From NCBI RefSeq assembly GCF_015277775.1, contig NZ_CP063849.1:8385501-8449500 (forward strand): DNA of 64,000 nt, given 5' to 3'. Made by a program: the position numbers and the translations under genes. Positions 49,308-60,888 of the stretch are shown here, in pieces. The stretch comes from Paludibaculum fermentans. Lineage in GTDB: Bacteria > Acidobacteriota > Terriglobia > Bryobacterales > Bryobacteraceae. How positions within the stretch are numbered: the first letter of the stretch is position 1; every line of letters begins with the position of its first letter. Under the pieces are notes generated by a model that worked only from the letters and a program-made list of their open reading frames with translations, was not told where the DNA came from and searched no databases.

Positions 49308-51683
49308 CTACTTTTTGACTACGGCCGTCTCGGCGATCAGCTTGCGCAGGTCATCGAGGCGGCCCTTGATGACAGCATTCGCCGGGTCCTCCTGCACCTG
49401 CAGGGTGGCCCGGCGTTCTGCTTCCCGGTAGTCGTCCAACGCTGCTGCCGTTTCGCCTGCCTGCTGGTAACAGTCACCGCGGGTTTTCAGGAAGGTGACG
49501 AGGCCGTAGCCGAACTGCCGGTTTTGTGCGTCCCGCTGATAGAGATTCCGGAGGGTCTCGATGGCCGGATTGAGTACCGCTACGGCCTCTTTGGGGCGGC
49601 CGAGGTTGAGGAGGGTCGCGGCCTGCCCACGAATCAGGGTGACGCGGATTCGCATGTTTGCCAGGGAGGAGTTCTCCACCGCGTCCATGCGATCCAACGC
49701 ATCGAGGGACCGGCGATACCAGGGCAGGGCCTCTTCATTCCGGCCGAAATCCTGCATGCATTGCCCGAGTTTCATGCAGGCAATGCTGACGCCACGTCTG
49801 GCGCGCGTGAGCACGGCCGGGGCGACGTCGGTCCGTTTGGAGAGCACCTCGACCGTGGCCAGTTGACTCTTGAATGCCGCGATGGCGCCCTCTTTGTCGA
49901 TCACGACTCCAGTGCCGATTCCGGCCAGATGGTCGCCCAGGGTGCCGCGCGCGCCCGAGAGCTCCACCAGGATCTCCGCCGAGTTTGGAGCCCGCGCATC
50001 GAGTCCCTCCAGCAGCCGGATGCAGTGCCGCATGTATTCCACCCCTTTCGGAGTTTCTCCGGAGTAGGCGGTCACCTCACCCAGGCTGGAATACAGCAGG
50101 GCCCGGGACTTCTCCATCGGAATGGGCCCGGAGCCTTCGGGGATTCCTTTCAGCAACTCCAAGCCGCGCCGGTAGGTCTCCAGCGCTTTCTTGGTATCTC
50201 CAATGTTGGTGGAGTAGGGATTGCCGTACAGATTCCCCAGGCGTGCGTAGGCTTCCGCCAGTTCGCCCAGCATGGCGGGATCGCCCGTCGCTTCCTTGGC
50301 CAGGTTTTCGTAGTGCGCCAGGGACTTGGTAATCAGCAGTTGCTGGGCGGGCGTGGAACCAGGCATGTCCTTGACGATGTCGAAGAGGTCGAACAGGCTC
50401 AACCGGGCGAGGTCGCGCACCTGGACAAACCGTTTTTCCGCCCTTAGCCGTTCGGTTTTGGCAATGTGCGCTTCCCAGAGCGTCGTGATGAGACCTGCGA
50501 TGAGCAGGAGGACCGCGGCTGTCGTCGACAGGACGCCCGCCCTGTGGCGGCGGACGAACTTCCCGATGCGGTAGGCAGTGGTCTGCGGGCGCGCCGTGAT
50601 GGGCCGCCCTTCCAGGTAGGCCTGGATATCCGCGTCGAACTGCTCGACGCTGGCGTAGCGCTCCTGCGGTTCCTTGCGCAGCGCCTTGGCCACGATGAGG
50701 TCCAGGTCCCCGCTCAACTCCTTGCGGAGCGCAGGGGATTGGACCGCGTGACTGGGCGGCGGGCATTCCTCGTTCTGGATGGCGATGAACCATTCAGCCA
50801 CGGTGCGTTGAGTGGTGGAGTAAGGACTGCGGCCGCACAGCAACTCGAAAAGCATCACGCCCAGCGAGTACACGTCGGATTGTGCGTTGACCAGTTTCCC
50901 CAGGGCCTGCTCCGGGCTGGCGTAACGTGGCGTCATCATGACCGAGGTCGTGGACGTCATGTCCTCGTCATCGGGTTCGTCCACGAGTTTGGCGATACCG
51001 AAGTCGAGCAGCTTCACTTCGCCGCTGGAGGCAACCATCACATTCGATGGCTTCAGATCCCGGTGAATCACCATGTTGTGGTGGGCGTAACTCACTGCTG
51101 CGAAGACGTGGCGGAAGATCTCCAAACGGGCCCGAATGCCCAGGTTCCGGCTGTTGCAGTATGCGTCCAGGGGCTGGCCCTCGACGAACTCCATGATGAG
51201 GAACGGCATCCCGTCGGCGGAGAGGCCGCCGTCGAGCAGGCGCGCGATGTTCGGGTGTTCTAGGCCGGCCAGGATCTGCCGTTCCGCCAGGAACCGGCGC
51301 CGCAGATGTTCGGAATGCAGCCCGCGCCGCAACAGTTTGGCCGCGGCCTTCTTCTGGAACTGGTCGTCGGCGCGGTGCGCCAGGTAGACGTCGCCCATTC
51401 CACCCGAGGCCAGGGCGTGGTCAATCTGCCAGACGCCCAGCATGGAGCCGAGGGCGGGATCCACCACCGGTTGCTGGGGCGGATCAATCAGCGCCGCGAG
51501 AGCTGCCGGATTCTCGAAGAGAGCGTCGGCCGCCGAGGTGGCATCGATCATCCGCAGGACGGCATTCAGCATGATGTCGTCGCCGGCGCAGCTCTGGCTC
51601 AGGAATTGGGTTCGTTCGTCCCTGGGCAGAATTCTGGCTTCGTGAAACAGCTGCTCGACGCGTTGCCAGCGCGAATCGGTCAT
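49308..51683 (-). CDS. Membrane Ser/Thr protein kinase with TPR region
   Basis: From ATG 51683 the product is 791 residues. Residues about 80-350 form a Hanks-type kinase domain: glycine loop 'ASGGMGDVYLA', catalytic Lys in 'AAAKLLRRG' near 114, HRD 'VIHRDLKPSNVMV' near 208, DFG 'LLDFGIAKL' near 227. A membrane helix follows ('RAGVLSTTAAVLLLIAGLITTLW'), then a TPR-like helical region to the end. The ECF sigma gene starts 5 bases upstream, a pairing typical of Solibacter-like genomes. The kinase may regulate or respond to that sigma factor. Confidence 0.93.
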   Translation of the reverse strand: MTDSRWQRVEQLFHEARILPRDERTQFLSQSCAGDDIMLNAVLRMIDATSAADALFENPAALAALIDPPQQPVVDPALGSMLGVWQIDHALASGGMGDVYLAHRADDQFQKKAAAKLLRRGLHSEHLRRRFLAERQILAGLEHPNIARLLDGGLSADGMPFLIMEFVEGQPLDAYCNSRNLGIRARLEIFRHVFAAVSYAHHNMVIHRDLKPSNVMVASSGEVKLLDFGIAKLVDEPDDEDMTSTTSVMMTPRYASPEQALGKLVNAQSDVYSLGVMLFELLCGRSPYSTTQRTVAEWFIAIQNEECPPPSHAVQSPALRKELSGDLDLIVAKALRKEPQERYASVEQFDADIQAYLEGRPITARPQTTAYRIGKFVRRHRAGVLSTTAAVLLLIAGLITTLWEAHIAKTERLRAEKRFVQVRDLARLSLFDLFDIVKDMPGSTPAQQLLITKSLAHYENLAKEATGDPAMLGELAEAYARLGNLYGNPYSTNIGDTKKALETYRRGLELLKGIPEGSGPIPMEKSRALLYSSLGEVTAYSGETPKGVEYMRHCIRLLEGLDARAPNSAEILVELSGARGTLGDHLAGIGTGVVIDKEGAIAAFKSQLATVEVLSKRTDVAPAVLTRARRGVSIACMKLGQCMQDFGRNEEALPWYRRSLDALDRMDAVENSSLANMRIRVTLIRGQAATLLNLGRPKEAVAVLNPAIETLRNLYQRDAQNRQFGYGLVTFLKTRGDCYQQAGETAAALDDYREAERRATLQVQEDPANAVIKGRLDDLRKLIAETAVVKK

Positions 51684-51688
51684 ATTCT

Positions 51689-52276
51689 CTATAGCGGATC
51701 GGAGCGGTGCGATTCCATCTGTATTTGGAGCCAACTCTTTGCAAAAGCCCAATCCCGTTCCACTGTCGCCCGGCCAACATTGAGGACGCCCGCAATCTCG
51801 TGCTCAGTGAGTCCCGCAAAGAACTTCATCTCGACGACGCGCGCCTTGCGGGCATCCAGGGCTTCGAGCCTGGCCAGGGCCTGGTCGATGGCCAGGATGT
51901 CCATGTCGGGATTCGTGGAGGCGATTGCGTCCTTCATCTCAACCTGAATGGCTCCGCCCCCTCTTCGCTGGGCCTGGCGGGCTCGTGCGTGGTCGACCAG
52001 GATATGGCGCATGACAGTGGCGGAGACTGCGAAAAAGTGGCCGCGATCCCGGATATCCACCGCGCTCTGTCCGATCAGGCGCACGTAGAGTTCGTGCACC
52101 AAGGCCGTCGGCTGCAGTGTATTCGCGTTTTGTTCCCTGGAAAGTGCACGACGGGCCAAGGCGCGCAGCTCATCATAGACCTGCGACATAAGCACGTCTC
52201 GAGCACTCAGGTCGCCGTCACTCCAGCGCCTGAGCAATTGAACCGTATCGTCCGCCGAAGACCCAGGAGAGGACAT
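51689..52276 (-). CDS. ECF sigma factor of the kinase-associated (TIGR02999) type
   Basis: From ATG 52276 the protein (195 residues) has 'VTQLL...'-type region 2 here as 'DTVQLLRRWSDGDLSARDVLMSQVYDELRALARRALSRE', the subfamily motif 'LQPTALVHELYVRLI' and 'FFAVSATVMRHILVDHARARQAQRRGG', and region 4 'RVVEMKFFAGLTEHEIAGVLNVGRATVERDW'. Members are usually beside membrane Ser/Thr kinases, as here. Promoter targets are unknown. It is divergent from the first tssK across 242 bases that hold a short AACCC/GGGTT inverted repeat (52295-52309). Confidence 0.93.
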   Translation of the reverse strand: MSSPGSSADDTVQLLRRWSDGDLSARDVLMSQVYDELRALARRALSREQNANTLQPTALVHELYVRLIGQSAVDIRDRGHFFAVSATVMRHILVDHARARQAQRRGGGAIQVEMKDAIASTNPDMDILAIDQALARLEALDARKARVVEMKFFAGLTEHEIAGVLNVGRATVERDWAFAKSWLQIQMESHRSDPL

Positions 52277-52518
52277 GATTTTGAGAGGCCGAGGAACCCC
52301 TACAGGGTTTGAGCATAACAGGGATCCGGATCGCCGTGGGCCGCATGAGGGGACAGTGAGGGTTTCCACGCTTACGTTAATGATGAGGTTCATTCGAGGG
52401 TCGAGAGCGGCGCTCGGGGTGCCAACCCGCCCGGGATGGTCTGGCCGAGGTGCTTCGGCTGAAGCCTGGAGACAGCATGGCTATTGCCGGTGCAGGCTCT
52501 GTGCTAACGTGTGATTCG

Positions 52519-53871
52519 ATGCGGATCCTCCAGCCGGTACTGTGGTCCAAAGGGACATTTCTGACGCCTCAGCATTTGCAGGCGCAGGACCGGTTTATCG
52601 AGAGCCTGCTGCACTTTCGCGCGGAGGCGCTGCATTACAGGCCGTGGGGTTTCTCCCGGCTGAAGCTTGATCATGAGGCACTGAATGGAGGCGCGGCCGG
52701 ACTCAGGGAGGGCAGCGGGCTGTTTCCGGATGGCTCTCCGTTCGAGATTCCCGGTGCGGATACGCCGCCCGCCGCCAAGCATCTAGCCGAGTATTTCCGG
52801 CCCGGGCAGGAGACGCTGGACATCTTCCTGGCCATTCCCGAATACCGTGAGAACTCAGTGAATGTCTCGGTGCCCGGCCGCGGGCTCGACACACGCTATC
52901 TGGCTGAGGTGGCTGTGTTTCGAGACGAGAACAGCGGCCAGACCGAGCGGCCGGTGCAGGTGGCCCGGAAGAACCTGCGGATCCTGGTCGAAGGAGAGAA
53001 CCGGCAGGGGCACTCGCTGCTGAAGCTTGCTCGCGTCCGGCGAACCGCTGCCGATACCCTGGAGTTCGACCCTCGATTTGTGCCACCGCTGTTGGATATC
53101 CGGGCGAGTGAAACGGTGGTAGGTACGGCGCGCCGACTGTTGGAGATCCTCTCCGCCAAGAGTTCGATGCTGAGCGCCTTGCGCAGGCAGAAGAACCAGA
53201 GCCTGGCCGAGTTTACCGTCGGTGACATCGCCAACTTCTGGCTGTTGTACTCAGTCAATTCGCATTTGCCGGGGCTGCGCCATCTCTATGAAACGAGAGG
53301 CGGACACCCGGAAGAGTTGTTCGCGCTGATGCAGTCGCTGGCGTCGGTCCTCACCACATTTTCCATGGAGGTCCAATCAAGAGATCTCCCCTCGTACGAT
53401 CACGAGGACCTGGGTGAACGGATGGCCGAGCTCGAATCGGTACTGATGCACCTGCTGGAGACGGTTGTACCCAGCAACTTCGTGTCCCTGCCGCTGCGTC
53501 TCGTCCGCCCGTCCATCTACGGGGCGACGCTGAGTGAAGAGAAGTACCTTCAGAACACCAAGCTGTATCTTGCGGTTGCCGCGGACATCGGCGAAGCCGA
53601 GTTGATGGTGAAGGGGCCGCAACTCATCAAGGTGTGCTCCGCTACCCACATTGAGCACCTGGTCCGCCAGGCATTGCCGGGTGTACCGATTGCTCATCAG
53701 GTGGCTCCGCCTAGTTCAATTCCTGTGAAGTTGAACTACCAATACTTCAGCCTCAGCCAGTCGGGCTTGGCTTGGGAGGCCATAGAGCGGGCACGCAATC
53801 TGGCCGTTTATGTGCCGGGCGACTTCCCTAACCCGAAGCTGGAGCTGATCGTTCTGTTGCCTACCTCTTGA
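52519..53871 (+). CDS. tssK: Type VI secretion baseplate protein TssK (copy 1)
   Basis: From ATG 52519 the protein is 450 residues and matches TssK: 'QPVLWSKGTFLTPQHLQAQDRFIESLLHF' near the start, 'FFPDGSPF'-like 'GLFPDGSPFEIP', 'LVRPSIYGATLSEEKYLQNTKLYLAV' and the C-terminal 'KLNYQYFSLSQSGLAWEAIERARNLAVYVPGDFP'. TssK trimers link the baseplate to the TssL/TssM membrane complex. Its 3' end overlaps the convergent tail-anchored gene by 11 bases. It is a paralogue of the tssK at 55296. Confidence 0.93.
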   Translation: MRILQPVLWSKGTFLTPQHLQAQDRFIESLLHFRAEALHYRPWGFSRLKLDHEALNGGAAGLREGSGLFPDGSPFEIPGADTPPAAKHLAEYFRPGQETLDIFLAIPEYRENSVNVSVPGRGLDTRYLAEVAVFRDENSGQTERPVQVARKNLRILVEGENRQGHSLLKLARVRRTAADTLEFDPRFVPPLLDIRASETVVGTARRLLEILSAKSSMLSALRRQKNQSLAEFTVGDIANFWLLYSVNSHLPGLRHLYETRGGHPEELFALMQSLASVLTTFSMEVQSRDLPSYDHEDLGERMAELESVLMHLLETVVPSNFVSLPLRLVRPSIYGATLSEEKYLQNTKLYLAVAADIGEAELMVKGPQLIKVCSATHIEHLVRQALPGVPIAHQVAPPSSIPVKLNYQYFSLSQSGLAWEAIERARNLAVYVPGDFPNPKLELIVLLPTS

Positions 53872-55222
53872 ACACCAGAACAACTACCGTGATCAACAAG
53901 AGAATGAGCAGGAAACTGAGTACCGCAACCAGGATCCCCAGTAAATTGTTCTTCTTGGGTGGCGGCGGCAGTGGTACGGCGCCGGGCATCGGGGCGGAAT
54001 TGAACGGCGGGGCTGGAGCCATGTCTCCTGATTGCTGGAGATGAGGTCCCTGCAACACGCGGGTGAATTCGCTGGGGCCGGCGGGCCGCGCGGTTTGCGC
54101 CAGCGGCATGGAGCCGGGACGGTCCGAGCCGGAAAACAAACCCGTTGCGCCTGCCGGAATCGGCGAATGAGCTGGAGGCGCGGGTGTGGAGCCTTGGGCG
54201 GGCAATCCGTGCTGATCTTTGCCGAACTGGATCGTGAAATCGCTGGGACCGCTGAAGGGGCGGCTGGCGGGATCGGACGGGGGTGGTGCGACGACCCCGC
54301 GTTCGATCTCCTCAACGGGCAGGGAACTCGCGCCGAGAGGCGATCCAAAGAACTTCGCGAAATCGCCCTCGTCCGACCTGGGGGGCGGCGGAGGAGGCTG
54401 CAGCGGGGACTGGCCTGCCGGCGGCCGGTAGGCGGGAGGCTGGGGCACCGGCGGTCTGGGCGGCTCGTTGACGAGCGGACGATACTGCGGTTGCGGCTGG
54501 GCCTGGGGCGTGGCGGGCTCCGGCTGGAACGGCGGTTGGGGGACTGGAGACGCCGGCTGTGCGACGGCACCTCCAAACATCCGGGTGAACTCGCCGGGCG
54601 TGTGCGCCGCGGCTGGCGGTGCAATGGGCTGAGCCGGAGTCACTGGTGCAGCCGGCTGAAAACCAACCGGGGGGACCGCCGGGGGTTGGGCCGCGGGTTG
54701 AGCCGAGTCGAACAAGCGAGTGAACTCGCCCGGCTCCGCTTTCGGCGCGGGCGGCGGAGCAGGGGATTGGGCCGGCGATCCGGCGAACATGCGCGTGAAT
54801 TCGCCGGGTTCCGCCCTGGGCGGTTGCGGGGCAGGGGCACTGGGAACGGGCGGTGGAACGACAGGCAGCGGCGGAGGTTGGGGCGAAGCGGCCAGGGAGA
54901 CCGCCGTCGGCTCGTCATTGCCGCCGTGGAGTCTCGTGTTGATCCACTGTTCGAGATTTGTGAAGTTTTCATCGAACGTCGTCACGACGTACGGCGGCTC
55001 GGCTGCCTCCTGGACTTCCACGACCACGCCCATCAATGTGGTTGGGTCCAGCCGCATCTGATCCCTCAGATGGAGGAGGAGCGGTGAACGCCTGCTGTCG
55101 TCGCCCATACCCCACAAGTGGAGCAACACGTTCCGTCCCGTTTGGATCTCCCGGGCTTGGAAGGACTTCGGTTCCCCGTTCCGGACCAGCTTCACCAACT
55201 CGTATCTGCTATAGAAGCTCAT
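53861..55222 (-). CDS. Tail-anchored proline-rich protein with repeated GEFTRMF motifs
   Basis: The 453-residue protein has three parts. Residues 1-98 ('YELVKLVRNGEPKSFQAREIQTGRNVLLHLW', '...PPYVVTTFDENFTNLEQWI') recall the N-lobe and hinge of a Ser/Thr kinase without the catalytic lysine or any C-lobe. Residues 105-425 are Pro/Ala/Gln-rich and contain six copies of a short motif: PGEFTRMF (139-146), PGEFTRLF (164-171), PGEFTRMF (209-216), EGDFAKFF (285-292), GPSDFTIQF (325-333) and GPSEFTRVL (382-390). Residues 427-450 form one membrane helix, followed by FKR. It is encoded antisense between two tssK genes. Function unknown; I recognise no family. Confidence 0.85.
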   Translation of the reverse strand: MSFYSRYELVKLVRNGEPKSFQAREIQTGRNVLLHLWGMGDDSRRSPLLLHLRDQMRLDPTTLMGVVVEVQEAAEPPYVVTTFDENFTNLEQWINTRLHGGNDEPTAVSLAASPQPPPLPVVPPPVPSAPAPQPPRAEPGEFTRMFAGSPAQSPAPPPAPKAEPGEFTRLFDSAQPAAQPPAVPPVGFQPAAPVTPAQPIAPPAAAHTPGEFTRMFGGAVAQPASPVPQPPFQPEPATPQAQPQPQYRPLVNEPPRPPVPQPPAYRPPAGQSPLQPPPPPPRSDEGDFAKFFGSPLGASSLPVEEIERGVVAPPPSDPASRPFSGPSDFTIQFGKDQHGLPAQGSTPAPPAHSPIPAGATGLFSGSDRPGSMPLAQTARPAGPSEFTRVLQGPHLQQSGDMAPAPPFNSAPMPGAVPLPPPPKKNNLLGILVAVLSFLLILLLITVVVLVFKR

Positions 55223-55295
55223 GGTTCCCGCCGCCTCGATCGAGTACTATTATAAGTCTCGCGGAGGAGACGGCTCGCCAGAAAATGGAGTGCAT

Positions 55296-56645
55296 ATGAA
55301 GACGCTGAGCCGTGTAGTCTGGTCGGAGGGAATGCACCTCGGGCCGCAGCATTTTCAGGCTCAAAACCGGTATTTCGAGAACCTCGTCCACTTCACGGCC
55401 GCTAACCTGGCCTATGAGCCCTGGGGGTTGGCCGCGTTTCAACTGGACAAGGACGCGATTCGAAACGGCCTGGTCACGCTGATCCACGCGAGCGGAATCT
55501 TCCCTGACGGGCTGGTCTTCGCCGTGCCCGATCCTGACTCCGGTCCGGCTTCCCGCGCCATTGCCGAAGTGTTTCCGCCGATGCGGGAATCCGTGGACGT
55601 CTTCCTGGCTATCTCGCCGTTTCAGGAGATCAGCGCCAACTGTTCGGCCAGTGAACAAGTGGAGCCCGGGCTCCGTTATGCGCCGCAGACGGTGGACATG
55701 CCCGACGAACTTACGGGCATGGACTCAAAGCAGTTGCGGCTGGCGCGCAAGAATCTCCGCATCCTGGTGGAATCTGAACTCCATGGCGAACTGGCCATCC
55801 CGATTGCACGGGTCCGCCGCGACGCCGCCGGGCAGTATGTCTACGACTCGAACTTTGTCCCGCCGGTGCTGCGCATCCAGGGCAGCGAACGGCTGATGGT
55901 ACTGCTTCGCAGGTTGGTGGAGATCCTGGACGAGAAGAGCCGGGCGGTGGCCAAGCCGAAGGATCTTTCGGCCGGGACGGCTTCCGGCTTCTCCGCGCAA
56001 GGGATTAGCAATGCATGGTTTCTGCATTGCGTGAATGCGTCGCTTACGCCCCTGCGGCACCTCTGTTTCAGCAAGTCGGGCCACCCGGAAGAGTTGTACA
56101 CGGAGATGGCGCGCCTGGCCGGGTCGCTATGCACATTTGGCCTCGACTCGCATCCCGCGAACCTGCCGCTTTACAACCACGCCAAACTGGCTGAGTGCTT
56201 CGATACTCTCGATCACCACATCCGGACCCACCTGGAACTGGTGGTGCCCAGCAATTGCGTGAGCATTTCGCTGACGAAGTCAGCCAACTACTTCTGGGAG
56301 GGCCAGATCGCCGACTCCAGGACGCTGGTGCATTCCCGCTGGATCTTTGCGATCCGTTCCAAGATTGGCGAGGCGGAACTGATCTCGGGCACGCCGCGAC
56401 TGGTCAAGGTATGTTCGAAGGAGTTTGTGCCTAAGCTTGTTGCTCGCGCCCTGCCGGGGATGACCCTCAAGCACATCCCTGTGCCGCCGCCGGCAATTAA
56501 CCCCCGGGTGGACTACCAGTATTTTAGTGTTGATAAGGCAGGACCCTGCTGGGAGCACATGGTCCAGTCCCGTCAGGTGGGCGTTTACGTGCCCGGCGAA
56601 TTGCCTGATCCTGAGATTGAGCTGCTGGTTGTACTGGAGTCATAA
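55296..56645 (+). CDS. tssK: Type VI secretion baseplate protein TssK (copy 2)
   Basis: From ATG 55296 the protein is 449 residues, with the same layout as copy 1: 'RVVWSEGMHLGPQHFQAQNRYFENLVHF', 'SGIFPDGLVF', 'RKNLRILVESE', 'LVVPSNCVSISLTKSANYFWEGQI' and 'DYQYFSVDKAGPCWEHMVQSRQVGVYVPGELPDPEIEL'. 'QHFQAQ' and 'YVPGELPDPEIEL' are closer to typical TssK proteins than the first copy. It heads the tssK-tssL-tssM run, so it is likely the main baseplate TssK. Confidence 0.95.
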   Translation: MKTLSRVVWSEGMHLGPQHFQAQNRYFENLVHFTAANLAYEPWGLAAFQLDKDAIRNGLVTLIHASGIFPDGLVFAVPDPDSGPASRAIAEVFPPMRESVDVFLAISPFQEISANCSASEQVEPGLRYAPQTVDMPDELTGMDSKQLRLARKNLRILVESELHGELAIPIARVRRDAAGQYVYDSNFVPPVLRIQGSERLMVLLRRLVEILDEKSRAVAKPKDLSAGTASGFSAQGISNAWFLHCVNASLTPLRHLCFSKSGHPEELYTEMARLAGSLCTFGLDSHPANLPLYNHAKLAECFDTLDHHIRTHLELVVPSNCVSISLTKSANYFWEGQIADSRTLVHSRWIFAIRSKIGEAELISGTPRLVKVCSKEFVPKLVARALPGMTLKHIPVPPPAINPRVDYQYFSVDKAGPCWEHMVQSRQVGVYVPGELPDPEIELLVVLES

Positions 56646-56675: not shown

Positions 56676-57398
56676 ATGAATGCATCGCCTACGGCAGTCC
56701 CCTCACCGGAAACCCCGGCCCAACGGCGCAACGAGAATCTTGCCTTAGTTTTCCAGGAGATGTTGACCGCGGTGGTACGGCTTCGCTCGAACCGCCAGGC
56801 GGTCAACGATGCGGAGTCTTTCCGCAATCAGGTGCGGCAGGCCATCCGCCTGGCGGACCAGGAAGGGCGCAAGCTGGGCTATACGGAGGACGACATCCGC
56901 CTGGGCGTCTTCGCTGTGGTGGCGTTTCTGGACGAGTCCGTTCTCAACCTGCAGAACCCGGTGTTCTCCGACTGGGTCCGCAAACCGCTGCAGGAGGAGT
57001 TGTTCGGCCGGCATACGGCAGGCGAGATCTTCTTTGAACAGCTTCAGCACCTGATGGGCCGCCGCGAAACGACGGAGTTGGCCGATCTGTTGGAGGTCTA
57101 TCAGCTCTGCCTGCTGTTGGGTTTTGTCGGCCGGTATTCGATCAGCGGCCGTGGCGACCTGAGGGCGATCATTGAGGCGCTGAACGACAAGATACGGCGG
57201 ATCCGCAAACCTCGCGGCGAGATTTCCCCTTCCTGGCAGTTGCCGGAGCAGAAGTTCGTGCAGAGCGGGGGCGATCCCTGGGTGAAGCGCCTGCAATGGG
57301 TGGCCTTGGGATCGGGCATTCTGGTTCTACTTCTCTTTGTCATGTACAAGGTTTTTCTGGGCTCGGGGCTGACATCGCTCCAGAGTCTGGTGCGCTGA
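56676..57398 (+). CDS. tssL: Type VI secretion membrane protein TssL (DotU family)
   Basis: The 240-residue DotU-family protein has the cytosolic hook domain ('ADQEGRKLGYTEDDIRLGVFAVVAFLDESVLN', 'LFGRHTAGEIFFEQLQHL', 'VYQLCLLLGFVGRYS') and one C-terminal membrane helix (ALGSGILVLLLFVMYKVFLG). It has no OmpA-like extension. It anchors the baseplate to TssM. A GGAG site lies upstream and the gap to tssM is 7 bases. Confidence 0.95.
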   Translation: MNASPTAVPSPETPAQRRNENLALVFQEMLTAVVRLRSNRQAVNDAESFRNQVRQAIRLADQEGRKLGYTEDDIRLGVFAVVAFLDESVLNLQNPVFSDWVRKPLQEELFGRHTAGEIFFEQLQHLMGRRETTELADLLEVYQLCLLLGFVGRYSISGRGDLRAIIEALNDKIRRIRKPRGEISPSWQLPEQKFVQSGGDPWVKRLQWVALGSGILVLLLFVMYKVFLGSGLTSLQSLVR

Positions 57399-57405
57399 GG
57401 CAATC

Positions 57406-60400
57406 ATGCTTCCGACCTCTTATTACTTCATTGCCGCTTTCGGCATGGTCTCGTACCTGGTCCTGACGTGGTTCCTGGTCGACCTGCTCAAACTGCCTTA
57501 TTCCGCGGTCTGGATTGCCCGCATTGTGATCTCCGCGATCGGACTGCTCGCCGGAGGCCTGTTCCTCTGGTGGAAGGCGAAACGGGGCGTGGCAAAGGGC
57601 GACGGCACGGCGGCGCAGCTTCCGTCCGAATCCGAGGAGATGGACCCGCTGTTTCGGGATGCCGAAACCCGCCTGGCTGCATCCACCCTTGGCCACGATG
57701 CCAAGGTTGGGACCCTGCCCGTCATTTTGGGCATCGGCGATCCCGGGTCGGCCAAGACCTCCACTTTCGTGAATTGCGGCGCCGAGCCGGAGTTGATCGG
57801 CGGCCACGTCTACCAGGAGGGGTACATTATCCCCACGCGATCGGTGAACCTCTGGTTTGCCCGGAACGCAGTCATGGTGGAGGCCGGTGGACAGGTTTTC
57901 TCCGATGGGAATCGATGGAACGCATTGCTGCAGCGTCTGCGAGCAGCCCGGCTTCGCTCTCTGTTCTCCAAGAAGCAGCAGGCGCCGCGATCGGCGGTTG
58001 TCTTCTTCGACGCTGAGGCGTTTCTGAAGCCAGGCGCTCAGGAGAATGCCACCGTCGTGGCCCGGCGGCTGAATGCCAGGCTTGGGGAAGTGAGCCGGAC
58101 GCTTGGCGTCCAGTTGCCGGTTTATGTGATTTTTACGCGTTGCGACAGGATTCCGTTCTTTGCCGAGTTTGTCGGCAATTTCTCGGAAGACGAGGCGCGT
58201 CAGGTGGTGGGCGCCACCGTGCCGATGGCGTTCAACGCGCGCGTGGGTGTCTACGCCGAAGAAGAGATCCGGCGTCTTACCTCCGCCTTCCACGATATTT
58301 TCCTGGGGCTGGCGGACCAGCGGCCCGCCCAGTTGGCGCGCGAGGCCAATGCCCAGAAGTTGCCGGGTGTTTACGAGTTCCCGCGCGAGTTCCGGAAGAT
58401 TCGGGCCCTTGCCGTGCAGTTCATGGTGGACCTTTGCCGGCCCAGCCAGTTGCAGACCAGCCCTTACCTGCGCGGGTTCTACTTCTCAGGTGTGCGGCCC
58501 GTCGAGGTGAGGGAGGTCGTGCAGGCGCCCCGCTTGCAGCCAGGTTCCTCGCGATCGAGCGGAGCGACCGGCATCTTCTCAATGGGCGAGAGGGGCGAGA
58601 TGGTGGAACAGCCCCAGCAGAGTGTCCAGATGCGGCGGGTTCCGCAATGGGTCTTCCTCAGCCGGTTGTTCAATGAAGTGATCCTGCGCGACCAGGCAGC
58701 GTTTCAAGCCAGTGCCGCGGGCGTGGGAACGGATAACGCGCGCCGTCTGCTGCTGGCCGCCGCGGCAGGGTTGGCACTCGTTTTCGGGGTGGGCTGGACG
58801 ACTTCGTATTTCGCCAACCGGACGCTGCAACGTCAGGTATCGGAAGCGGTCGCTGGCATTGGTTCAGTTTCCGGCGGCGGCCAGGATCTAGCGCCGCTCG
58901 ATGCCCTGAAGCGGCTGGACTCGCTGCGCGAGAACGCTGAGCTATTGTCACGCTACAGCAGGGAAGGCGCGCCCTGGAGCCTGCGCTGGGGCCTGTACAC
59001 AGGCGACGACCTGTTGCCCACAGTCCGCCGGTTGTACTTCAGCCGGTTCAATCAGTTGATGTTCGGCGCCACGCAGGCTGATCTGCTGGACCACCTCAAA
59101 AAGCTGCCCTCCAGTCCGGGACCAACCGACGAGTATTCCTTCACCTATGACACGTTGAAAGGGTACCTGATCACTACTTCGCACCACGACAAAAGCACTA
59201 AGTTGTTCCTGTCCCCATTGCTCCTCAAACGGTGGGCGGGCCAGAGAACCGTGGATGCCGACCGGCGCTTGCTGGCGCAAAAGCAGTTCGACTTCTACAG
59301 CGAGGAATTGAAGTTCGCCAATCCCTTCAGCTCTGAGAACGACACGCTCGCGATTGAAAGGGCCCGCAAGTTCCTGGCGCAGTTTGCGGCCACCGAGCGG
59401 ATCTATCAGTTCATGCTGGCGGAAGCGAGCCGGCGGAACCCGGCCATCAATTACAACCGTCAGTTCGCCGGCTCCGCCCAGGTGATTCTCAACGGGAAGG
59501 ACGTGGCCGGAGCATTCACAAAGGATGGCTGGGTGTTCATGCAGGATGCCATTAAGAACTTTGAACGGTTCTTCGCCGGAGAAGAGTGGGTGCTGGGATC
59601 GCAGACTTCCGCCGCGCTGGACCGCGCCAAGATCGAGCCGGAATTGCTAGCCCGCTATCAGTCAGACTTCACCGGCAACTGGCGCGACTACCTCAAGAAC
59701 TCGACCGTCCTCCGTTACGCCAGCGTGGATGACGCCGCGCGCAAATTAGGAATGATGTCGAACAACACCTCCTACTTGTTGGCGTTGTTCTGCCTGGCGA
59801 GTGTCCACACCTCGGCCTCTACGAACGCAGACATCAAGTCGGCGTTCCAGCCGGTCCAGTTTGTGACTCCGCCAGCCTGTCCCGATCGCTACATTGAAGC
59901 AGCGAACCAGAACTACATGAATAGCCTGGTCGCGCTGCAAGCTTCGCTGGAGCAGGTGGTTCGCGCCAAGAACCCCAGTGACCCTTCCGTCAATGCAACG
60001 CTGCAGGAAGCGTCGCGCGCCAAAACAGCGGCCCGGCAAGTCGCCCAGAGTTTCCGCATCGACAAGGAAGGCCACGTCGAGCAGATGGTTCAGAAGCTGA
60101 TGGAGGATCCCATCACCTATGTTGAAGCGCTGCTCGGCCGTTTGGGACCGGCCCAGATCAACGGAGAGGCACGCCGCTTCTGCGTCGACTTCCAGGGCGT
60201 GGTCAACAAGTATCCTTTCAATACCTCGTCGCAGAACGATGCCTCCCTGGAGGAGATCAACACCGTCTTCAAACCGGGTAGCGGGTCCATGTGGGTGTTC
60301 TACGAGCAAACGCTCAAGAACCACCTCGTTCGCCAGGGATCCCAGTTTGTCTCCGGCGGCAGTGATTCCAGCATCCGCATCACTCCGCAGTTCCTCAGAT

Positions 60401-60888
60401 TCTTCAACCGGGCGGCCGCCTTTAGCGACGCTCTGTACCGCAGCGGCGGCTCGCAGGATCCGCAGCTCAGCTACACCTTGAAGGCCCTGCCTGCCGAGGG
60501 AATCCAGGGGCTGACCCTGACCCTGGATGGGCAGACGCTCAAGTCGACTGGCGCCGGCGGACAACAGGCGTCGTTCCAATGGCCGGCTTTGCGGACTCGT
60601 GAAGCACGCCTGGCCGGCAGCCTGGGCGGAACCGAGTTGGGCTTCCTGAGTTACAACGGGCTGTGGGCGGTGTTCCGCTTCTTCGGAGACGCCGATCGCT
60701 GGCAGGCTTCGGGCAGCGGCTACAACTTCGAGTGGGTGCCGCGACAGGGGCAATCCGGCCAGCCCATGACACTTTCGACCGGTAAGCCATTGACTGTCAG
60801 GTACTTCCTGGATATGGGGACAACCGCCCCCATCTTCCAAAAGAATTATTTGTCAGGCTTCCAATGTGTGAGTCAAGCCGCCCAGTAA
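57406..60888 (+). CDS. tssM: Type VI secretion membrane protein TssM (IcmF family)
   Basis: The 1160-residue IcmF/TssM has two N-terminal membrane helices ('FIAAFGMVSYLVLTWFLV', 'IVISAIGLLAGGLFLWW'), a P-loop 'GIGDPGSAKTSTF' near 112, a cytosolic NTPase domain, a third helix near 445 ('LLLAAAAGLALVFGVGW'), and a long periplasmic region ending in the TssM C-terminal beta domain. It forms the trans-envelope channel with TssL and TssJ. Length is typical. No TssJ lipoprotein gene was seen in the window. Confidence 0.95.
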   Translation: MLPTSYYFIAAFGMVSYLVLTWFLVDLLKLPYSAVWIARIVISAIGLLAGGLFLWWKAKRGVAKGDGTAAQLPSESEEMDPLFRDAETRLAASTLGHDAKVGTLPVILGIGDPGSAKTSTFVNCGAEPELIGGHVYQEGYIIPTRSVNLWFARNAVMVEAGGQVFSDGNRWNALLQRLRAARLRSLFSKKQQAPRSAVVFFDAEAFLKPGAQENATVVARRLNARLGEVSRTLGVQLPVYVIFTRCDRIPFFAEFVGNFSEDEARQVVGATVPMAFNARVGVYAEEEIRRLTSAFHDIFLGLADQRPAQLAREANAQKLPGVYEFPREFRKIRALAVQFMVDLCRPSQLQTSPYLRGFYFSGVRPVEVREVVQAPRLQPGSSRSSGATGIFSMGERGEMVEQPQQSVQMRRVPQWVFLSRLFNEVILRDQAAFQASAAGVGTDNARRLLLAAAAGLALVFGVGWTTSYFANRTLQRQVSEAVAGIGSVSGGGQDLAPLDALKRLDSLRENAELLSRYSREGAPWSLRWGLYTGDDLLPTVRRLYFSRFNQLMFGATQADLLDHLKKLPSSPGPTDEYSFTYDTLKGYLITTSHHDKSTKLFLSPLLLKRWAGQRTVDADRRLLAQKQFDFYSEELKFANPFSSENDTLAIERARKFLAQFAATERIYQFMLAEASRRNPAINYNRQFAGSAQVILNGKDVAGAFTKDGWVFMQDAIKNFERFFAGEEWVLGSQTSAALDRAKIEPELLARYQSDFTGNWRDYLKNSTVLRYASVDDAARKLGMMSNNTSYLLALFCLASVHTSASTNADIKSAFQPVQFVTPPACPDRYIEAANQNYMNSLVALQASLEQVVRAKNPSDPSVNATLQEASRAKTAARQVAQSFRIDKEGHVEQMVQKLMEDPITYVEALLGRLGPAQINGEARRFCVDFQGVVNKYPFNTSSQNDASLEEINTVFKPGSGSMWVFYEQTLKNHLVRQGSQFVSGGSDSSIRITPQFLRFFNRAAAFSDALYRSGGSQDPQLSYTLKALPAEGIQGLTLTLDGQTLKSTGAGGQQASFQWPALRTREARLAGSLGGTELGFLSYNGLWAVFRFFGDADRWQASGSGYNFEWVPRQGQSGQPMTLSTGKPLTVRYFLDMGTTAPIFQKNYLSGFQCVSQAAQ

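Follow-up and report, generated by a model that had tools for sequence, protein, structure and literature searches.

A tail-anchored motif-repeat protein of acidobacterial type VI secretion loci carries a predicted kinase half-domain and a docking-type motif also found in TssM

The stretch of DNA analyzed here (the window) covers 64,000 nucleotides of Paludibaculum fermentans (NZ_CP063849.1, positions 8,385,501 to 8,449,500) and contains a type VI secretion system (T6SS) locus. Between the two tssK genes of this locus, on the opposite strand, lies an open reading frame (ORF) for a protein that we refer to as MOT. An earlier reading of the DNA made without database searches (the sequence-only reading) described MOT as a 453-residue protein with a kinase-N-lobe-like head, six motif copies, one C-terminal helix and an 11-base overlap with the first tssK gene, and proposed that it is a multivalent docking protein unlike any described T6SS part. 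The features of MOT, in window coordinates, are as follows.

53861..55222, minus strand: MOT, predicted tail-anchored motif-repeat protein, 453 amino acids (ORF list, profile comparisons, hydropathy)
54929..55222, minus strand: MOT head, residues 1-98, predicted kinase N-lobe fold without C-lobe (profile, hhalign, AlphaFold2 model)
54785..54805, minus strand: motif copy 1, GEFTRMF, residue 140
54710..54730, minus strand: motif copy 2, GEFTRLF, residue 165
54575..54595, minus strand: motif copy 3, GEFTRMF, residue 210
54347..54367, minus strand: motif copy 4, GDFAKFF, residue 286, with Ala at the Thr position
54224..54244, minus strand: motif copy 5, SDFTIQF, residue 327
54134..54151, minus strand: GATGLF element, residue 358, of the same type as the TssM loop motif
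54053..54073, minus strand: motif copy 6, SEFTRVL, residue 384
53870..53944, minus strand: predicted C-terminal membrane helix (tail anchor), about residues 427-451 (hydropathy; coordinates by arithmetic)

MOT consists of a head that resembles only the N-lobe of a kinase, a Pro/Ala-rich arm and a C-terminal anchor. The arm carries six GEFTRMF-type copies and one GATGLF element, and the 3' end of the ORF shares 11 bases with the 3' end of tssKa. The hydropathy averaged over 19 residues was 3.4 at residue 430 and at most 1.6 for segments starting before residue 400; the single strongly hydrophobic stretch of the protein is its C-terminus. The MOT ORFs of relatives that we inspected likewise end in hydrophobic tails. 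MOT is thus predicted to be tail-anchored by one C-terminal membrane helix, and its head and arm would be cytosolic. The length, the six copies, the helix and the overlap described earlier were confirmed on sequence and hydropathy, and this layout supports the idea of multivalent docking. The libraries searched contained no described counterpart: no Pfam model matched the MOT of the window at E ≤ 0.1, and no NCBIfam family matched any of four MOT proteins at E ≤ 0.01. No FHA domain was found in this protein (Pfam, E ≤ 0.1) or in any of 36 MOT heads scanned. A promoter and terminator scan of positions 55100-55450 found neither.

To characterize the head we used a set of 44 heads cut by script, 36 of which were kept for the alignment and profile. 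The eight omitted included at least one miscut head (L141), some near-duplicates and some divergent sequences, and further MOT proteins gave no head with the cutting script. Compared with PDB sequences, the head profile gave 69 matches at E ≤ 1; the 60 listed were all protein kinases, with a best E-value of 6.7e-5. Pairwise hhalign of the heads with eight kinases from these loci gave an E-value of 4.7e-8 and a probability of 94.9. The kinase Pfam model had no match in any of the 36 heads when they were scanned singly. An AlphaFold2 model built from the 36-head alignment (mean pLDDT 87.0, pTM 0.77) has the order strand-strand-strand-helix-strand-strand-helix, with five strands in all and a helix inserted after the third. 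By our reading, this predicted order corresponds to a kinase N-lobe, in keeping with the head that had been noted from the sequence. The position of the catalytic Lys, placed by strand 3, is occupied by His in 31 of 36 heads (His35 in the window) and by Lys in none, and the head passes directly into the Pro-rich arm with no C-lobe. Because both the catalytic Lys and the C-lobe are missing, the head, a predicted kinase half-domain, should not be catalytic.

The motif was studied in a collection of 87 MOT proteins that includes contig-end fragments; removal of near-duplicates left 79. An iterated profile on these 79 yielded 651 copies, and the core of the motif is F-T-[RQK]-[ML]-F. For residue counts, copies were re-picked leaving one position at a time unscored. 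The Thr was found in 580 of 617 copies (Ala in 12, Glu in 11, Asp in 5, Ser in 5), the preceding Phe in 541 of 641 (Tyr in 54), the following Arg in 424 of 642 (Gln in 81, Lys in 50) and the final Phe in 533 of 619 (Met in 45). Copies lacking the Thr recur as DEFEKLF or DEFAKLF. In 64 C-terminally complete members, a simple pattern counted 3 to 18 copies per protein (median 7), and the median spacing was 41 residues. It had been suggested that MOT might count components; this range of copy number argues against strict counting.

Between close relatives the motifs are conserved better than the linker. With one relative, the ratio of nonsynonymous to synonymous substitution (dN/dS) was 0.04 in the motifs versus 0.13 in the linker; with a second, the proportion of nonsynonymous differences (pN) was 0.035 versus 0.204, with synonymous change in the motifs saturated. 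This purifying selection, together with the conservation of the protein, rules out a chance or spurious ORF, and MOT is a genuine gene. We also considered whether the motif is simply widespread in the genome. The motif DNA pattern has four sites in 9.5 Mb, all of them in two MOT genes of T6SS loci, which excludes this, and the reversed pattern has none. Because all four sites fall in T6SS-locus proteins and the reversed pattern gives zero, the motif is beyond chance.

The T6SS genes next to MOT in the window are the following.

52450..53871, plus strand: tssKa, baseplate TssK, paralogue a (PF05936, 7e-131; TIGR03353)
55296..56645, plus strand: tssKb, TssK paralogue b, divergent from MOT (Pfam, NCBIfam; likely start at Met26 of ORF 55221-56645)
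56676..57398, plus strand: tssL (DotU) (Pfam)
57406..60888, plus strand: tssM (IcmF) (Pfam, NCBIfam)

According to Pfam matches, tssKb, tssL, tssM, tssB, tssC and hcp lie on the plus strand on one side of MOT and tssKa on the other. Beyond the end of the window are a second hcp, tssA, tssE, tssF, tssG, tssH, vgrG and a large Ser/Thr kinase gene. The placement of MOT antisense between two tssK genes therefore stands as first described, but the start of tssKb is likely at 55296 and not at the listed 55221. Met26 (55296) is invariant in the 17 of 24 TssKb proteins that we aligned and the ORFs of several relatives begin there, so that MOT and tssKb are probably separated by a gap of 73 bp. Another T6SS locus in the 9.53-Mb genome likewise has two tssK genes and a motif protein of its own: a long ORF that bears GEFTRMI/GEFTRLL-type repeats, ends in a membrane tail and is divergent from a tssKb-like gene.

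Some other observations concern the genes of these loci. The tssKa (52450-53871) and tssKb (55221-56645 ORF) products of the window are about 40% identical and differ in their N-termini; the N-terminal region of Escherichia coli TssK forms a cavity that holds TssG loops, as described in the portion of PMC6300606 used here. Before the T6SS locus, on the opposite strand at 49308-52393, are an ECF sigma factor (Sigma70_ECF) and a TPR-bearing Ser/Thr kinase. A class-I methyltransferase-like gene is present in 28 of the loci scanned, with some genomes repeated (for example L039:2610-4124, L140:6196-7785 and L153:6304-7791). For 19 of the hits tssKa is a neighbor, and the copy in the P. fermentans genome matches Pfam MTS.

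To examine relatives, loci were gathered by a TssKb search that was blind to MOT; 231 stretches were confirmed and the best 80 kept. These loci come from the closest relatives, are not independent of one another and share some genomes with the 61-genome set described below. Three of them (L132, L134, L143) begin too close to tssKb, leaving 77 informative loci. In 61 of the 77, MOT lies upstream of tssKb in divergent orientation and no more than about 430 bp away; these comprise 59 motif-bearing Pro/Ala-rich ORFs (some cut by a contig end) and two recognized by inspection (L147 and L093, the latter with the head alone remaining at a contig end). MOT is therefore not missing from the T6SS loci of relatives. 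It lies about 3 kb from tssKb in L115. The other 15 loci showed no MOT in the fetched stretch; motif sites occur elsewhere in 10 of those 15 genomes and in none of the remaining 5, where a laxer pattern gave no cluster either. Two records are titled Chthoniobacterales and Betaproteobacteria (L152 and L154), and L152 has a MOT adjoining tssKb; these may reflect horizontal transfer or mis-binned draft genomes.

We then compared MOT with the presence of TssK in 61 genomes, the P. fermentans genome and 60 relatives, taking E below 1e-90 as a strong TssK hit. MOT was found in 27 of the 28 genomes with a strong hit and in none of the 33 others, which bears out the link to T6SS made in the sequence-only reading. 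Of the 27, 25 were found by pattern, G017 by reading the ORF and G019 by a C-terminal match to just an 86-residue frame at a contig end. Here and below, no MOT means that none was detected: the genomes include drafts, and the lax pattern misses Met-type motifs such as FTMMF of G017. The exception among the 28, G026, has one TssK and no detected MOT. Among the 33 others, a single pattern site in G057 and, in a 1004-residue frame of G049, a protein match that covers the head alone were not counted as MOT, and G020 has a divergent TssK, a TssK fragment, a second TssM and no detected MOT. In a phylum-wide sample almost wholly outside the family, a stricter pattern occurred in 2 of 247 genomes, P. 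fermentans itself and another with a single site. Together, these data show that MOT is encoded in T6SS loci and co-occurs with T6SS, and it belongs to a T6SS lineage, mostly with two TssK paralogues, in one family of soil Acidobacteriota.

A motif of the same type as the GATGLF element of MOT is present in TssM.

58561..58578, plus strand: TssM residues 386-391, GATGIF, shared docking-type motif in the loop before the putative third membrane helix

It takes the form of a conserved A-T-x-phi-F (phi being I, L, M, V, F or A) in a loop that is bounded by RGFYFSGVRP and VPQWxF and whose length and sequence otherwise vary. In an alignment of 26 TssM proteins (that of the window and 25 of 54 parsed relatives), A387, T388 and F391 are at least 90% conserved. 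The exact pattern occurs in 71 of 78 distinct loops, compared with 0.49 on average and at most 3 in 200 shuffles; the 78 are those parsed by script from two overlapping sets. The loop ends ahead of a stretch that corresponds, by alignment, to the solved E. coli TssM from residue 356 on. Because the loop precedes this stretch, which we take to be the third membrane helix, it would lie in the cytosol. The same A-T-x-phi-F occurs in 38 of 64 C-terminally complete MOT proteins, mostly at about three-quarters of the length or beyond; shuffled sequences gave 5.2 on average and at most 12.

We also counted both motif forms by family among 1339 predicted proteins in the loci, with some genomes repeated. 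The TssM form matched 73 of 99 TssM, 17 of 64 labeled MOT and 6 of 700 unlabeled proteins, three of the six being MOT proteins that the labeling missed; its matches in TssKa are considered below. The GEFTRMF form matched 62 of 64 labeled MOT proteins, 20 of 700 unlabeled proteins, all of them missed MOT proteins, and one protein labeled as a kinase (L069). Neither form was found in other protein families among the 1339, and the motif was in none of four TssG examined. The TssM form was also missing from four proteobacterial TssM proteins examined (Rhizobium, Sinorhizobium, Paracoccus and Paraburkholderia) and from the divergent TssM proteins of G022, G059 and G020-C141.

The copy number of the TssM element also varies, A-T-x-phi-[FL] being present three times (L203, G020) or twice (L138) in this loop. 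The top plasmid match to TssM, with 31.5% identity, is in a Gemmatimonadota megaplasmid T6SS, Gemmatirosa kalamazoonensis plasmid 1 (L210). This TssM has RATVAF in the loop, and no MOT was seen in the gene list, inspected by eye, of the fetched 31.6 kb. The simplest history looks like one in which the TssM element is older and MOT is its amplifier.

How the cytosolic T6SS baseplate finds the membrane complex and stays on it despite the mismatch between five-fold and six-fold symmetry is poorly resolved. In our estimation the chances are about evenly balanced that MOT is a T6SS-dedicated scaffold, multivalent and tethered to the inner membrane, that recruits the baseplate, likeliest via TssK. 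From the likeness of the motifs, a docking partner common to MOT and TssM is probable, so that both motifs would bind one protein. TssK (TssKb) would be the likeliest candidate, since docking of the baseplate to the membrane complex goes through TssK in other species and MOT is divergent from tssKb-tssL-tssM. In E. coli the TssK head binds the cytosolic parts of TssL and TssM, and TssK trimers capture extended TssG loops (PMC6300606, in the portion used here). MOT might raise the local concentration of TssK or of the baseplate at the membrane and pass it to TssM; alternatively, its flexible tethers could link several TssK trimers with the five-fold membrane complex. The head may pair with a T6SS-linked kinase or with another partner. 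A broader claim, to which we hold more tentatively and with the chances somewhat against it, is that this T6SS lineage recruits the baseplate by a membrane-tethered motif array on a dead kinase half-domain, replacing the PpkA-Fha pathway. The motifs would then have been copied from, or be converging on, the TssM docking element.

Several observations weigh against the scaffold proposal. TssK enters it as the partner through gene order and what is known from other bacteria, and 5 of 62 TssKa proteins themselves match the TssM form. The TssM form, A-T-x-phi-F, differs from the commonest MOT form, F-T-R-M-F. The TssM motif is intact in systems without a detected MOT, as GATRMF in G319, EATSLF in G026 and three elements, one of them a variant, in the second TssM of G020 (L203). 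Because of these three systems the TssM motif does not need MOT, and a strict dependence between the two is weakened. In the reverse direction, the exact TssM pattern is missing in 5 of 52 loci with an adjacent MOT; among MOT-bearing genomes, G044 has GGSTLVL in its TssM and the TssM of G017 has no such loop. Three draft genomes with no detected MOT (L096, L116, L140) have a TssM motif that ends in Leu or Ile and not in Phe, which is suggestive, but the cases are few.

A phospho-switch is a rather unlikely explanation, in our judgment, but the strongest of the others. Here a T6SS-linked Ser/Thr kinase would phosphorylate the Thr of the motif, and the MOT and TssM motifs in their phosphorylated form would recruit a phosphothreonine reader, as in the PpkA-Fha pathway elsewhere (precedents in the portions used of PMC3953482, PMC12607579 and PMC6082577), with the MOT head pairing with a kinase N-lobe. 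The retention of Thr in 580 of 617 copies, with just 5 Ser and 16 Glu or Asp, fits this, but Ala substitutes for it in 12. In Agrobacterium, Fha binds phospho-Thr14 of TssL (PMC3953482, same portion). Kinase genes were counted in 54 loci, the 80 minus 5 without TssM and 21 that end too soon. In 24 of these, tssM is followed within 700 bp by a Ser/Thr kinase gene, and 7 have one elsewhere in the stretch. The P. fermentans genome has 43 kinases in 9.5 Mb, and this placement is far above chance if the other genomes resemble it. However, kinases also flank loci without a detected MOT (L096, L116). Likewise, 60 of the 61 genomes have an FHA protein somewhere, but the nearest to any tssK is about 20 kb away (G021; among the matches listed, compared by eye). 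Five lone FHA proteins of MOT genomes were compared: those of G018 and G033 group with FHA proteins from genomes that have no TssK hit, for G007 and G019 the grouping is with another FHA protein of the P. fermentans genome, and that of G023 has no full-length match among the FHA proteins compared. A dedicated FHA reader is weakened, though the last three proteins leave room for one. Docking to TssK and a phospho-switch can both be true.

Some of the kinase genes directly downstream of tssM (L126:13669-15258, L131:8421-10067 and others) encode a C-terminal part, past a membrane helix, that by eye resembles a formylglycine-generating-enzyme domain.

MOT could also be a brake, its copies titrating the common partner off TssM and keeping the system inactive for as long as MOT stays in place unmodified. 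The motif type common to TssM, the many copies and the divergent gene of its own suit this, and it fits the data equally well as the recruiting model; no computed result separates the two, and we regard a brake as improbable. A role as a carrier of effectors or Hcp, or as a cargo adaptor with no part in docking, is very improbable for MOT: its long Pro/Ala-rich arm is encoded within a secretion locus, but the motif classes are in 0 of 35 Hcp and 0 of 8 VgrG proteins of the loci and MOT adjoins tssK-tssL-tssM, not vgrG. The suggestion in the sequence-only reading that MOT might gather Hcp or effectors found no support.

For the recruiting scaffold, the relation of its motif to that of TssM names residues to mutate and bait peptides, which makes the docking site directly testable, and it marks the TssM loop before the putative third membrane helix as a conserved element of this T6SS subtype. 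MOT also provides a case, from a bacterial machine, of short docking motifs repeated along a membrane tether; if the proposal is true, a bacterial secretion machine is assembled via multivalent short linear motifs at the membrane. MOT is apparently undescribed. The GEFTRMF string was not found in the literature searched, and no such protein appeared in the titles or abstract starts of the listed matches on T6SS with Acidobacteria, TssK, Solibacter, Bryobacter or pseudokinase.

Fha/TagH is the phosphothreonine-binding scaffold of T6SS. MOT is unlike it in having no FHA domain, in being anchored to the membrane by its predicted tail and in carrying peptide repeats instead of reading them. The FxxLF-type helical docking motifs of eukaryotic proteins have an F-x-x-phi-F spacing of hydrophobic residues; the MOT motif has a similar spacing, and we take this as a resemblance only. 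PpkA, the T6SS Ser/Thr kinase, is a membrane-bound protein of T6SS loci with a kinase-derived cytosolic domain; it reportedly binds parts of the membrane complex and of the baseplate and forms condensates (PMC12607579, in the portion used here). MOT differs from it in having only the predicted N-lobe, with neither the catalytic Lys nor the C-lobe, and in a membrane helix that forms the very C-terminus, so that no periplasmic domain follows. As a final comparison, the TssG loops are, like the MOT motifs, extended hydrophobic segments, and they are captured by TssK (PMC6300606, same portion); those of MOT belong to a different protein, with a different sequence and in a different location.

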